10,153 bases of DNA from Bacillota bacterium. Its GTDB lineage: Bacteria; Bacillota_A; Clostridia; Peptostreptococcales; Anaerovoracaceae. Where the stretch lies: positions 1 through 10,153 of the forward strand of contig JAFYLX010000123.1 in the NCBI GenBank assembly GCA_017556895.1, read 5' to 3'. The notes under the pieces were generated by a model. That model saw only the letters and a program-made list of their open reading frames with translations. It did no database searches and was not told where the DNA came from. Shown here one piece after another: positions 7,378 through 10,153 of the stretch; positions within the stretch are counted from its first letter, which is position 1, and every line of letters begins with the position of its first letter. A program made the translations under genes and the position numbers.

Positions 7378-8766
7378 ATGAATAACAAAAAGAACTATGA
7401 TGAGCATAATTACGATGCTAACTTTTTCTTAGACGTTATGCTTAATGAGACTGAAGAATGCATAATATTTGTAGATGTGGAAGGTAAGATTGTTGAACTT
7501 AGCCATGCCTATGCCAAGTTTTTGGGTGTTAATAGAGAAGATGTAATCGGAAAAGTTGTTACCGATGTTATTGAAAACACAAGGCTTCCAGAGGTAATCA
7601 CGACTCGTGTACCTGAAATTGCGCAGACACACAAGATTAAGGGCAAGAATATGATTGCCAATAGAATCCCTATTATTAGAAACGGTAAGGTTGAAGGTGC
7701 TTTTGGCCGAGTTTTATTTAGAAATGTCGAAGAATTAGACAAGCTATATAAGCAGATTGGCGATATGACACAGGAGTTAAACTTCTATGAGAGAAGCTTC
7801 GCTAAGTCAAATAGCTCAAAATACGGTGCTGATGATATCGTCGGAAACAGCCCTGCTATGGGGGAACTAAAAAAGACTATCAAACATATTGCCCACAGTA
7901 GATCCAACGTACTTATCCTAGGAGAAAGTGGTACTGGTAAGGAATTGGTTGCTCATGCGATACATAGTGAGTATCATGGTGATAAAAAACCTTTCGTCTG
8001 TGTTAACTGTGCAGCAATACCTTCAGAACTGTTGGAATCTGAACTTTTCGGATATGAAGAGGGGTCATTTACTGGTGCTAAAAAAGGCGGTAAAATCGGT
8101 ATGTTCCAGGCCGCAGACGGCGGGACGTTATTCCTAGATGAAATAGGTGAAATGCCACTTCAGATGCAGGCGAAACTTCTTAGAGTATTACAGGATAAGA
8201 AGGTTCAAAAGGTTGGTTCGAACGAATCAAAGCCTGTAAACGTAAGAATAATTGCGGCGACAAACCGTAATTTAGAAGAAATGGTTCAGGAAGGAAAATT
8301 CAGAGACGATTTGTATTTTAGACTGAATGTTATTTCCGTAAATATCCCTCCGCTTAGAGAAAGAGTAGAAGATATTCCTATTTTAGTAGGGGTACTAATT
8401 CACAAAGTGTCAGGAAATCCGTACATGGATGCCAAGGGTATTTCTCCTGAGGCAATGGAGTATATAAAAAAATATAATTGGCCGGGTAATGTTAGAGAGT
8501 TGGAAAACGTCATTGAACATGCCTCAAACTTCGTAGGAGAGGATGGAATTATCCAGGTAAGCCACCTTCCAAGGGTGATAACGGGCTTTGAAAAACACAG
8601 TGAAATCAAGACTTTGAAGCAAATTGTGGATGAAGTGGAAAGAGAAACGCTTGTTAATGCACTTCATAACAATAATGGTAGCAGAGTGAAGGCAGCAAAG
8701 GCCCTTGGCATAAGTAGAACTTCTCTTTATGAAAAGATGGAGAAGCACAACATAGCGGTTGGTTAG
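7378..8766 (+). CDS. PAS-domain sigma-54-dependent enhancer-binding regulator
   Basis: A 462-residue activator in three parts. An N-terminal PAS sensor (about 15-115) is followed by a short helical linker (about 117-142) and an AAA+ domain (about 152-385). The AAA+ domain has Walker A GESGTGKE (182-189), the sigma-54 contact loop GSFTGA (229-234), Walker B GGTLFLDE (248-255), the arginine-finger region FRDDLYFRLNV (308-318) and WPGNVRELENVIE (368-380). A Fis-type helix-turn-helix lies at about 425-456. There is no receiver domain, so control is probably by a small ligand or redox state through PAS and not by a histidine kinase. Such proteins hydrolyse ATP to open sigma-54 RNA polymerase complexes. 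The loop has Ser where GAFTGA is usual, a tolerated natural variant. AGGAGG precedes the ATG. A consensus sigma-54 promoter lies 185 bases after its stop codon, making the downstream dehydrogenase operon the likely target. Confidence 0.96.
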   Translation: MNNKKNYDEHNYDANFFLDVMLNETEECIIFVDVEGKIVELSHAYAKFLGVNREDVIGKVVTDVIENTRLPEVITTRVPEIAQTHKIKGKNMIANRIPIIRNGKVEGAFGRVLFRNVEELDKLYKQIGDMTQELNFYERSFAKSNSSKYGADDIVGNSPAMGELKKTIKHIAHSRSNVLILGESGTGKELVAHAIHSEYHGDKKPFVCVNCAAIPSELLESELFGYEEGSFTGAKKGGKIGMFQAADGGTLFLDEIGEMPLQMQAKLLRVLQDKKVQKVGSNESKPVNVRIIAATNRNLEEMVQEGKFRDDLYFRLNVISVNIPPLRERVEDIPILVGVLIHKVSGNPYMDAKGISPEAMEYIKKYNWPGNVRELENVIEHASNFVGEDGIIQVSHLPRVITGFEKHSEIKTLKQIVDEVERETLVNALHNNNGSRVKAAKALGISRTSLYEKMEKHNIAVG

Positions 8767-8785
8767 ACTTGTAAAAGAAAACGGA

Positions 8786-8803
8786 TGTACGGAAAAACTT
8801 ACA
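8786..8803. promoter_or_regulatory. Upstream dyad site 1 (candidate enhancer for the PAS regulator)
   Basis: The 18-bp sequence fits TGTAMGGAAAAACKTACA, a near-palindrome with TGTA...TACA ends, here with C then T at the variable bases. Its centre lies about 182 bases before the predicted sigma-54 transcription start, within the normal range of enhancer sites. Binding by the neighbouring regulator is inferred. Confidence 0.6.
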
Positions 8804-8827
8804 CAAAAAGGGCGCAAAAATGAAAAA

Positions 8828-8845
8828 TGTAAGGAAAAACGTACA
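8828..8845. promoter_or_regulatory. Upstream dyad site 2 (candidate enhancer for the PAS regulator)
   Basis: A second copy of the same 18-bp dyad, with A then G at the two variable bases. It is centred exactly 42 bases after site 1 (four helical turns) and about 140 bases before the predicted start. The conservation runs a little beyond the dyad on both sides. Confidence 0.6.
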
Positions 8846-8854
8846 AATAAGTGG

Positions 8855-8883
8855 CGACACCTTGAAAAAGGTGTCGTTTTTTT
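8855..8883 (+). terminator. Strong intrinsic terminator of the regulator gene
   Basis: A perfect nine-base-pair stem CGACACCTT/AAGGTGTCG (8855-8863 with 8868-8876) closes a GAAA tetraloop and is followed by seven T. It separates the regulator transcript from the sigma-54 operon. Confidence 0.96.
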
Positions 8884-8949: not shown

Positions 8950-8950
8950 T

Positions 8951-8965
8951 TGGCACGATGTTTGC
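8951..8965 (+). promoter_or_regulatory. Sigma-54 (-24/-12) promoter
   Basis: TGGCAC (8951-8956), five bases, then TTGC (8962-8965) match the sigma-54 consensus at every fixed position, with the preceding T and following T also preferred. GG and GC are at the required spacing. Transcription should start near 8977, giving a leader of about 88 bases before the dehydrogenase ATG. Confidence 0.93.
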
Positions 8966-8985
8966 TATTAATTATGGCAAGAAGG

Positions 8986-9004: not shown

Positions 9005-9012
9005 ACAGAATC

Positions 9013-9022
9013 GAAACGTTTC
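9013..9022. promoter_or_regulatory. Perfect 10-bp palindrome GAAACGTTTC in the leader
   Basis: GAAACGTTTC is a perfect palindrome about 40 bases inside the predicted transcript. It resembles a shortened cre box but lacks the two central spacer positions of the usual form. It may be an operator for another regulator. Confidence 0.3.
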
Positions 9023-9064
9023 AAAAGCTAAAAATAAATTGTATTGTATATAGGAGTTACCATT

Positions 9065-10003
9065 ATGAGAGAGATTAAAAAGATCGCTATCGCAGGTGCA
9101 GGTACAATGGGCGCCTCCATGGCAGAAACATTTGCTAAGTTTGGCTATGATGTAATTTGCTACGATATCTTCGAAGCAGCATTACAGAAAGCTGAAAATT
9201 TAATTTCAATCAACCAGGAAACTGAACAGGAACATGGTATTGTTACTGCAGAAGAATCCAAAGCATTAATGGATAGAATTACATATACTACAGACATCCA
9301 GATGCTAAAGGATGTTGACTACGTAGTAGAAGCAGTTCTTGAAAAAATTGAAATCAAGCATAAGTTCTGGGAAGAAGCTTCCAGAATCGTAGACGAAGAT
9401 GTAGTTCTAGCAAGTAATACTTCTGGTCTTTCCATCACAAAGATTGCGGAAGTTGTACACAAGCCTGAAAGATTTGGTGGAATGCACTGGATTAACCCTC
9501 CACACATCATTCCTCTAATCGAAGTAATCAAGGGCGAAAAGACTAGTGAAGAAGCAGCAAAGGTTATTTACGACCTATGCGAAGCAGTAGAAAAGAAACC
9601 TGTTCTAATCAAGGATGCTCCAGGATTCGCACTTAACAGAATCCAGCTTGCAATCTTAAGAGAATGTTTATACATTGTGGATCAGGGTATTGCATCTCCG
9701 GAAGATGTTGACAAGGTTATGAAGTACGCTTTAGGTGTAAGATATGCTTGTCTAGGTCCTTTAGAAGTATGTGACCACGGTGGTCTTGATATCTTCAACA
9801 ACATCGCATCATACTTATTCGAAGATTTATGCGACGCTAAAGAACCATTTGGTCTTCTAAAAGAAGCAGTTGAAAATGGAAATTACGGTGTAAAGAGTGG
9901 AAAGGGCTTCTACGATTACAGTGGAGATAAGTATAAAGAAGCAATCGTGTACAGAGACAAAATGTACACTAAAGTTTCCGAATGTTTATTCGTAGAAGAA
10001 TAA
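9065..10003 (+). CDS. 3-hydroxyacyl-CoA dehydrogenase family protein
   Basis: A 312-residue cytosolic NAD-dependent oxidoreductase. The N-terminal Rossmann fold has GAGTMG (11-16), with an acidic residue after the second strand (YD, residue 34) favouring NAD. Catalytic-type residues follow: NTSGLS (Ser120), His141 in MHWINPP, Glu153 in IEVIKGE and Asn191 in PGFALNRIQ. The C-terminal helical domain ends with SGKGFYDYS (278-286). Members oxidise 3-hydroxyacyl-CoA to 3-ketoacyl-CoA. However, HWINPP replaces the usual HFFNPV, and the protein is about 30 residues longer than a standard 282-residue butyrate-pathway Hbd. That points to the wider group that includes L-gulonate and carnitine dehydrogenases, so the substrate may be a different 3-hydroxy acid or ester. 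AGGAG (9052-9056) supports ATG 9065. It is the first gene of the sigma-54 operon. Confidence 0.88.
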   Translation: MREIKKIAIAGAGTMGASMAETFAKFGYDVICYDIFEAALQKAENLISINQETEQEHGIVTAEESKALMDRITYTTDIQMLKDVDYVVEAVLEKIEIKHKFWEEASRIVDEDVVLASNTSGLSITKIAEVVHKPERFGGMHWINPPHIIPLIEVIKGEKTSEEAAKVIYDLCEAVEKKPVLIKDAPGFALNRIQLAILRECLYIVDQGIASPEDVDKVMKYALGVRYACLGPLEVCDHGGLDIFNNIASYLFEDLCDAKEPFGLLKEAVENGNYGVKSGKGFYDYSGDKYKEAIVYRDKMYTKVSECLFVEE

Positions 10004-10035: not shown

Positions 10036-10153
10036 ATGGCAACTAAAGTTGGTATCGTAACAGGCGCAGCAAGCGGTATCGGTCTTGCAATCGCAGAAGG
10101 TTTAGTGGCAGCAGGCCACACAGTAGTAATGGCAGACATTAATGAAGCAGGTC
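10036..10153 (+). CDS. Short-chain dehydrogenase/reductase (5' part)
   Basis: Only the first 39 codons are in the window. They encode the start of a classical SDR: a beta strand, the cofactor motif TGAASGIG (9-16) and an Asp at the end of the second strand (Asp34 in MADIN), which favours NAD(H) over NADP(H). Substrate cannot be inferred from this part. AGGAGG at 10022-10027 is eight bases before ATG, and the gene starts 32 bases after the dehydrogenase stop, so it is in the same operon. Together the two enzymes suggest stepwise oxidation or reduction of a hydroxy or keto acid. Confidence 0.88.
   Translation, partial: MATKVGIVTGAASGIGLAIAEGLVAAGHTVVMADINEAG

Follow-up and report, generated by a model that had tools for sequence, protein, structure and literature searches.

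Within the window, that is the whole analysed stretch of 10,153 nucleotides, the region considered here leads from the gene of an enhancer-binding protein across an intergenic region with two dyads to the first genes of a putative target operon. Its features, with coordinates, strand and basis, are as follows:

7378..8766, + strand: enhancer-binding protein gene with PAS, AAA+ sigma-54 activation and Fis-type helix-turn-helix (HTH) domains, 462 aa (Pfam)
8710..8739, + strand: codons of the presumed recognition helix of the HTH, ISRTSLYEKM (read from the sequence, aligned with relatives)
8786..8803, + strand: dyad 1, TGTACGGAAAAACTTACA, proposed activator box (exact match; array in relatives)
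8828..8845, + strand: dyad 2, TGTAAGGAAAAACGTACA, likewise a proposed activator box, at 42 bp from dyad 1 (exact match; array in relatives)
8853..8883, + strand: intrinsic-terminator-like hairpin (stem 8853-8878) with T run, proposed end of the activator transcript
8950..8966, + strand: candidate sigma-54 (-24/-12) promoter, TTGGCACGATGTTTGCT (pattern match only)
9065..10003, + strand: first target gene, 3-hydroxyacyl-CoA dehydrogenase-like, 312 aa (Pfam 3HCDH_N, 3HCDH)
10036..10153, + strand: second target gene, truncated where the window ends, for a short-chain dehydrogenase that is perhaps a 3-hydroxybutyrate dehydrogenase (adh_short)

In line with an earlier sequence-only reading, which had placed a gene for a PAS/Fis-type enhancer-binding protein directly before the dyads, the Pfam domains found in this protein are PAS, Sigma54_activat, AAA_lid_14 and, for the Fis-type HTH, HTH_8 and HTH_50. 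By analogy with Fis-type HTH proteins, we take the ISRTSLYEKM stretch to be the recognition helix. The loop of the GAFTGA type reads GSFTGA in the translation, a variant counted as still active (PMC6615313; for this and the other papers given by PMC number, statements refer to excerpts of the text). All 25 NCBIfam models displayed for the activator, of 36, stay below their cut-offs, the best being PrdR with 445.5 of 795 bits; the NifA model scores 337.9 of 528.85 bits and is likewise below its cut-off. A PDB search returned general AAA+ activators for the activator and, for the HTH alone, weak matches led by designed repeat proteins. At some distance, directly after the glyceraldehyde-3-phosphate dehydrogenase gene of the window, there is also a perfect 24-bp tandem repeat, GACTTCGCGATTCATCTAGGCTTG, with 2.5 copies at 1680-1740.

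The two copies of TGTAMGGAAAAACKTACA that had been reported at 8786-8803 and 8828-8845 are both exact and lie at these positions, and their start-to-start distance of 42 bp corresponds, as had been claimed, to four helical turns at 10.5 bp per turn, the register in relatives being 39-44 bp and mostly 41-43 bp. Dyad 1 starts 20 bases past the activator stop codon, and the predicted dyad centres near -182 and -140 are reproduced if the start is taken to lie about 12 nt past the GC of TTGGCACGATGTTTGCT. All four half-sites read TGTACG or TGTAAG. The UAS of NifA has the form TGT-N10-ACA, and with a spacer of 12 the window dyads do indeed depart from it. However, the TGT-N12-ACA motif that had been set apart from the NifA form on these grounds is not new, as spacers of 10-12 bp are known from clostridial activators (PMC6615313) and the layout is that of the TyrR box (PMC4894688).

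Exactly two TGTA-N10-TACA sequences occur in the window, and both are the dyads. Shuffled windows contain 0.24 such sequences on average and reach two in 5 of 200 cases, and matches to the dyad with at most three mismatches have a mean of 0.04 in 200 window shuffles. Two dyads appeared in 25 of 1,000 whole-window shuffles, with a pair at 41-43 bp in none, and not once in 20,000 dinucleotide-shuffled versions of the 298-bp intergenic region. The dyad pair is not explained by chance. A further copy of the dyad with three mismatches, TGTCAGGAAATCCGTACA, is found at 8408-8425 inside the coding sequence of the activator; it precedes dyad 1 by 378 bp (9 x 42) and is probably due to chance.

Downstream of the dyads, at the distance of about 100-250 bp at which a UAS would be followed by its promoter, the sequence matches TTGGCAC-N5-TTGCT, 104 bp past the end of dyad 2 and 164 bp past the start of dyad 1. 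The terminator-like hairpin, which the sequence-only reading did not include, sits between the dyads and this promoter match.

As to the conservation of the element, a scan of contigs for activators yielded three loci including L001 (53% identical), to which loci from other clostridial genomes were added; by taxon, four belong to the family of the genomes G227 and G276, one to the family of G406, whose glyceraldehyde-3-phosphate dehydrogenase is the closest to that of the window, and many to the order of G406. At least two dyads in a 39-44 bp register, which was picked after the data had been seen, adjoin 51 of the 114 distinct activators compared, as opposed to 50 of 2,260 shuffled regions (20 for each of 113 of the 114 activators), and at least three dyads adjoin 34 of the 114 as opposed to 4 of the 2,260. 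Because some of the 114 activators were recruited through dyad scans as neighbours of a dyad pair, the share of arrays is raised, above all for the three-turn class, and because the rows are related to one another, shuffles and permutations overstate their independence. When the best pair was searched between 25 and 60 bp with no preferred spacing, 57 of the 114 activators had a pair that matches 14 or more of the 16 outer letters. A spacing of 41-43 bp is seen in 41 of these 57 pairs, the remainder being spaced by 28-31 bp (nine), 33 bp (three) or 39, 44 (two) and 45 bp (four). L098 was counted as being without an array on account of a wrong tail, a 43-bp pair adjoining it in fact, and the offsets for L205, and perhaps L211, are late as the stop codon used comes after an earlier one.

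Many of the closer activators are followed by two or three dyads just past the stop codon, for example at +1, +43 and +86 with a promoter at +185. In a tree of 105 activators computed from the AAA+ region with the HTH left out, the window activator belongs to a clade of 12 (SH-aLRT 95), and each of the 12 shows two or more dyads in register; nine activators with an unmatched Walker-A pattern are outside the tree, of which no fewer than four (L197, L215, L225, L226) carry arrays. The last dyad is 97-170 bp from the TGGC in 28 loci, and in loci with a 39-44 bp array and a promoter match within 500 bp the match starts 162-371 bp past the activator stop codon. Thus 18-bp dyads at 41-43 bp recur beside related activators, mostly before -24/-12 promoters, as expected of UAS, and the loss of conservation that would have spoken against the sequence-only reading was not observed. 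As the same box type and the same spacing are found beside related activators in other clostridia, the element can be regarded as real and as belonging to a known type of enhancer.

The interpretation that best suits the comparisons is that the two dyads constitute an enhancer (UAS) of two 18-bp boxes with a TyrR-like layout, each of which would be occupied by a single dimer of the PAS-AAA+-Fis activator encoded next to them, and to this reading we assign a probability of about 0.88. Put more generally, the dyads are very probably docking sites of the adjacent activator. Of the earlier notion of a two-dimer enhancer, the array as such is upheld by its conservation beside related activators, but the number two is not typical: among 42 four-turn loci, relatives have three boxes (25 loci) more often than two (11, as in the window), with four boxes in four loci and five and one box in one locus each.

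With respect to the distance between the boxes, it could be argued that the 42 bp are a by-product of tandem duplication and have no function in phasing. The dyads do lie within a 42-nt direct repeat, 8785-8826 and 8827-8868, whose units are 74% identical, which hints at an origin by duplication in the window genome, and with 61% likeness between the two linkers of the window, 42 bp may have been duplicated there fairly recently. Across the relatives, however, linkers are at background identity, with 0.351 within a locus (82 comparisons) versus 0.352 between loci, and still the spacing is mostly 41-43 bp. Since two linkers of one locus resemble each other no more than linkers of different loci do, it is the distance that has been kept and not the sequence, and a spacing without function is an unlikely explanation.

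The enhancer reading further draws on the finding that, among the 57 activators with pairs, both the half-site and the spacing vary in step with the recognition helix of the neighbouring activator. Helices of the SR or GR kind (SRTSLYEK, for instance) are accompanied by TGTACG-like half-sites, with the best pair at 41-43 bp in 40 of 43, HR helices (HRTALYKK) by TGTAGA or TGTATC half-sites, with 28-31 bp in 9 of 10, and the TyrR-like helices SHTTIMNK and SHTAVMNK by TGTAAA at 33 bp in 3 of 3, which is the TyrR box of the literature. At half-site position 5, G or T is present in all half-sites of the 10 HR activators versus 21% in the 47 others, and no difference as large arose in 10,000 permutations, the HR rows being essentially a single clade. 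Pairs spaced mostly by 28-31 bp next to HR-type helices were noted in L105, L143, L144, L147, L148, L174, L175, L178, L034, L027 and L029; by eye, the genes that follow look thiolase-like except in L105, where they look CoA-transferase-like. Boxes resembling TGTAAA-N6-TTTACA and 33 bp apart were noted in L093, L095 and L169, which have SHTTIMNK or SHTAVMNK helices and, again by eye, a methionine gamma-lyase-like gene thereafter.

Nevertheless, the array is not determined by the helix alone, because a clade of eight ISRT(S/N)LYEK activators has no such array and has TGT-N11-ACA sites instead, which are 114-121 bp apart in five (L019, L037, L088, L089, L230). Next to several ISRA(G/N)LYKK activators, two 17-bp TGT-N11-ACA sites abut and another one follows 66-68 bp on (L021, L060, L062, L183) or, in one case, 121 bp on (L187); abutting sites alone were seen in L031-L033. 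Among loci with a promoter match, exact TGT-N12-ACA is found 94 times and N11 once in 37 four-turn loci, versus 39 times TGT-N11-ACA and five times N12 in 25 loci without four-turn arrays. The suggestion that the motif defines the binding code of the regulator family thus holds in that half-site and spacing change with the helix, but not in full, as TGT-N11-ACA is the form used by sister activators whose helix is similar.

A different regulator might also bind the dyads, be it one that acts on the activator gene or a separate repressor, in which case their place before a sigma-54 promoter would be incidental. The location of the dyads between the activator stop codon and the terminator is compatible with this, and arrays of TGTAAAG-N4-CTTTACA without an activator nearby do exist, for example in L137 and L138, so that the outline must be used by other proteins, too. 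Such a regulator would, however, leave it unexplained why half-site and spacing vary with the neighbouring activator's helix and why a promoter match follows at a UAS-like distance in the 28 loci mentioned above, and is given little credence here.

Catabolite control had been put forward as an alternative by the sequence-only reading itself; the dyads would then be relaxed CcpA sites of the crevar type, and the operon would be repressed in the presence of sugar. The outer letters TGTA...TACA are shared with crevar, the context is clostridial in both cases, and a cre-like sequence with two mismatches to the cre pattern used, TCGAAACGTTTCAA, can be found at 9011-9024, past the sigma-54 promoter and ahead of the first gene. 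However, crevar differs by its TGTAAA/TTTACA core and variable spacer (PMC5263246), and catabolite control is disfavoured because this core is absent from both dyads, whose half-sites are TGTACG or TGTAAG. In addition, the arrays accompany activator genes and -24/-12 matches, their half-sites follow the activator helix, and the cre-like stretches with two mismatches in six scanned relatives are in no case at the same promoter distance; control by CcpA through the dyads is therefore highly improbable. A role of the dyads as hairpins in the mRNA of the activator, as their position upstream of the terminator might suggest, has next to no probability given that the window has no Rfam match, that each dyad, as read from the sequence, could form few and mostly A/T pairs, and that the L194 array begins as far as 296 nt past the stop codon.

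Returning to the reading as an activator-bound enhancer, its presumed targets can be narrowed down by comparison with related clusters. The 3HCDH-like protein of the window is 69% identical to its counterpart in the L192 cluster, and the cut dehydrogenase is 57% identical over 37 aa to an L192 protein; the L192 dehydrogenase passes the cut-off of TIGR01963 for 3-hydroxybutyrate dehydrogenase, and the L192 CoA-transferase B passes that for 3-oxoacid CoA-transferase B. In the 48 loci with a best pair at 39-44 bp, the first gene, with only genes of 110 aa or more considered, is a member of the CoA-transferase cluster 33 times and of the short-chain dehydrogenase cluster 12 times, two loci have another first gene or none, and a 3HCDH-like first gene is found in the window only. 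A member of the GntP-type permease cluster occurs in 39 of the 48, several of the other loci ending early. Cluster representatives match CoA_trans, GntP_permease, adh_short, MaoC and 3HCDH in Pfam, and thiolase and acyl-CoA dehydrogenase genes were named by eye in some clusters. CoA-transferase, GntP permease and hydroxybutyrate-type enzymes are thus found in the relatives, the window itself being cut in its second gene. From the likeness to L192 and the content of the related clusters, the window operon probably serves 3-hydroxybutyrate/acetoacetate-type, that is ketone-body-like, acids, and the adjacent activator probably switches this gene cluster on.

Scans not centred on activators offer a separate view of the spacing. 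In the first two, two orders, represented by 147 and 247 genomes, were searched for two TGTA-N10-TACA at 28-58 bp, and it was counted whether an activator was present in the fetched stretch (about 1.5 kb on each side) and a promoter match within 400 bp; of the 104 distinct pairs obtained, with relatives counted singly, many adjoin activators already met in the protein searches. Pairs at 41-43 bp (n = 23) had an activator in 20 and a -24/-12 match in 18 cases. For the shorter distances, the numbers with activator and promoter, respectively, were 0 and 0 at 28-29 bp (n = 2), 8 and 7 at 30-31 bp (n = 11), 5 and 6 at 32-34 bp (n = 15), 0 and 1 at 35-39 bp (n = 7) and 1 and 2 at 40 bp (n = 4), and for the longer ones 0 and 0 at 44-50 bp (n = 16), 0 and 8 at 51-52 bp (n = 8) and 1 and 1 at 53-58 bp (n = 18). 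The boxes of the eight pairs at 51-52 bp, or about five turns, are TGTATC/TGTAGC-like and lie at about 1500-1700 in each of L121-L124 and L128-L131, where a -24/-12 match follows 95-128 bp past the boxes in 8 of 8 with no activator in the fetched stretch; the genes thereafter look, by eye, like CoA-transferase A in five loci and like transporters in three.

For a third scan of 391 genomes, which leaves out places already seen and the pair G227:C118 and from which L034 and L198 were added as loci, thresholds were set beforehand at more than 60% activator for 41-43 bp and less than 15% for 35-39, 44-50 and 53-58 bp. Both were narrowly missed: an activator was present in 3 of 5 pairs at 41-43 bp, all three already known, with a promoter in 1 of 5, and in 2 of 13 (15.4%) of the pairs in the other three classes, namely 1 of 5 at 35-39 bp, 1 of 5 at 44-50 bp and 0 of 3 at 53-58 bp. 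The remaining classes gave an activator in 4 of 5 at 28-29 bp, 1 of 1 at 30-31 bp and 0 of 3 at 32-34 bp, and the five-turn class was not repeated, with neither activator nor promoter in the two pairs at 51-52 bp (0/2 each). With this small sample, the third scan neither strengthens nor overturns the spacing rule.

Taken together with the helix data, these observations permit a broader proposal, which is put forward tentatively and at somewhat less than even odds. Clostridial sigma-54 activators might follow a grammar by subfamily in which the helix sets the half-site, and the subfamily fixes both the spacer (N11 or N12) and the number of whole turns that separate the boxes, for example about three for HRTALYKK, four for SRTSLYEK with CoA-transferase and GntP genes including the window, and five for TGTATC/TGTAGC boxes ahead of CoA-transferase-like or transporter-like genes, so that dimers would be presented in register for the hexamer and paralogues would not cross-assemble. 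A spacing grammar by activator subfamily is favoured by the first two scans, but with the third below its thresholds it is open to doubt. It is this subfamily-specific spacing that is the fresh part, as the TGT-N10-12-ACA kind of box is already known from published sites of clostridial activators (PMC6615313). Judged by titles and the beginnings of abstracts, and the UAS position table of PMC6615313 aside, no report of a 42-bp or whole-turn subfamily spacing of clostridial sites was found. Conservation of the spacing in relatives, which the sequence-only reading had named as a check, is seen in the prevalence of 41-43 bp across linkers at background identity.

As to the mechanism, dimers of the activator would bind the boxes and, so bound, assemble into a hexamer, which a DNA loop would then carry to the sigma-54 holoenzyme, while the PAS domain might sense an inducer. 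Both the anatomy of the region and the precedents of AdhR and GcsR described below agree with a standard enhancer of this sort. The enhancer would in this way drive the catabolism of substrates presumably of the 3-hydroxybutyrate/acetoacetate type. For an uncharacterised clostridial activator, this reading predicts where it binds, which operon it controls and what class of substrate is likely. If the spacing classes hold, they would moreover provide natural enhancers with three, four and five turns for testing the assembly of dimers into hexamers, and would aid in assigning orphan activators to operons.

Among known systems, the closest setting is given by the clostridial activators surveyed by Nie et al. 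2019 (PMC6615313), where, in the excerpts drawn on, 15 groups have sites of TGT and ACA with a spacer of 10-12 bp, multiple UAS occur in 32 groups, and UAS lie mostly 100-250 bp before the promoter. The operons of AhcR, CrbR, XcgR and XcaA in that work comprise CoA-transferase, gntT, hbd and thl. Common to XcgR, CrbR and AhcR and the window are sigma-54 activators, mostly with PAS in those groups, and a box, TGT-N12-ACA, that fits the 10-12 bp spacer; unlike them, the window has 3HCDH-like and short-chain dehydrogenase first genes, and the excerpted text gives no inter-UAS spacing. The loci with HR helices and thiolase-like genes resemble the XcaA-thl group of the same paper. L093, L095 and L169 fit the MdeR-mdeA group. 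AdhR of Clostridium beijerinckii, with three UAS each of which is required for full activity (PMC7017808), would be similar to the proposed window system as a clostridial sigma-54 activator acting on multiple UAS, but differs in its alcohol dehydrogenase targets and in having GAF plus PAS.

Beyond the clostridia, the TyrR box, TGTAAA-N6-TTTACA, and the GcsR box, TGTAACG-N4-CGTTCCG, are both 18-bp dyads, with three such boxes in a sigma-54 promoter in the case of GcsR (PMC4894688). The window dyads have this 18-bp layout with presumably other ligands and targets, and with TGTACG and TGTAAG half-sites they do not have the sequence of the TyrR box. The subsites of CbrB lie on the same face of the helix, as do the window boxes, but are non-palindromic and 20-25 bp, or about two turns, apart between centres (PMC6296734), whereas the window has palindromic-type dyads at 42 bp. 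Finally, HbcR (PA2005) of Pseudomonas aeruginosa is a PAS enhancer-binding protein that acts with RpoN in the catabolism of (R)-3-hydroxybutyrate (PMC8694187), and the activator of the window, PAS-bearing and predicted to be RpoN-linked and concerned with 3-hydroxybutyrate-type acids, can be likened to it.
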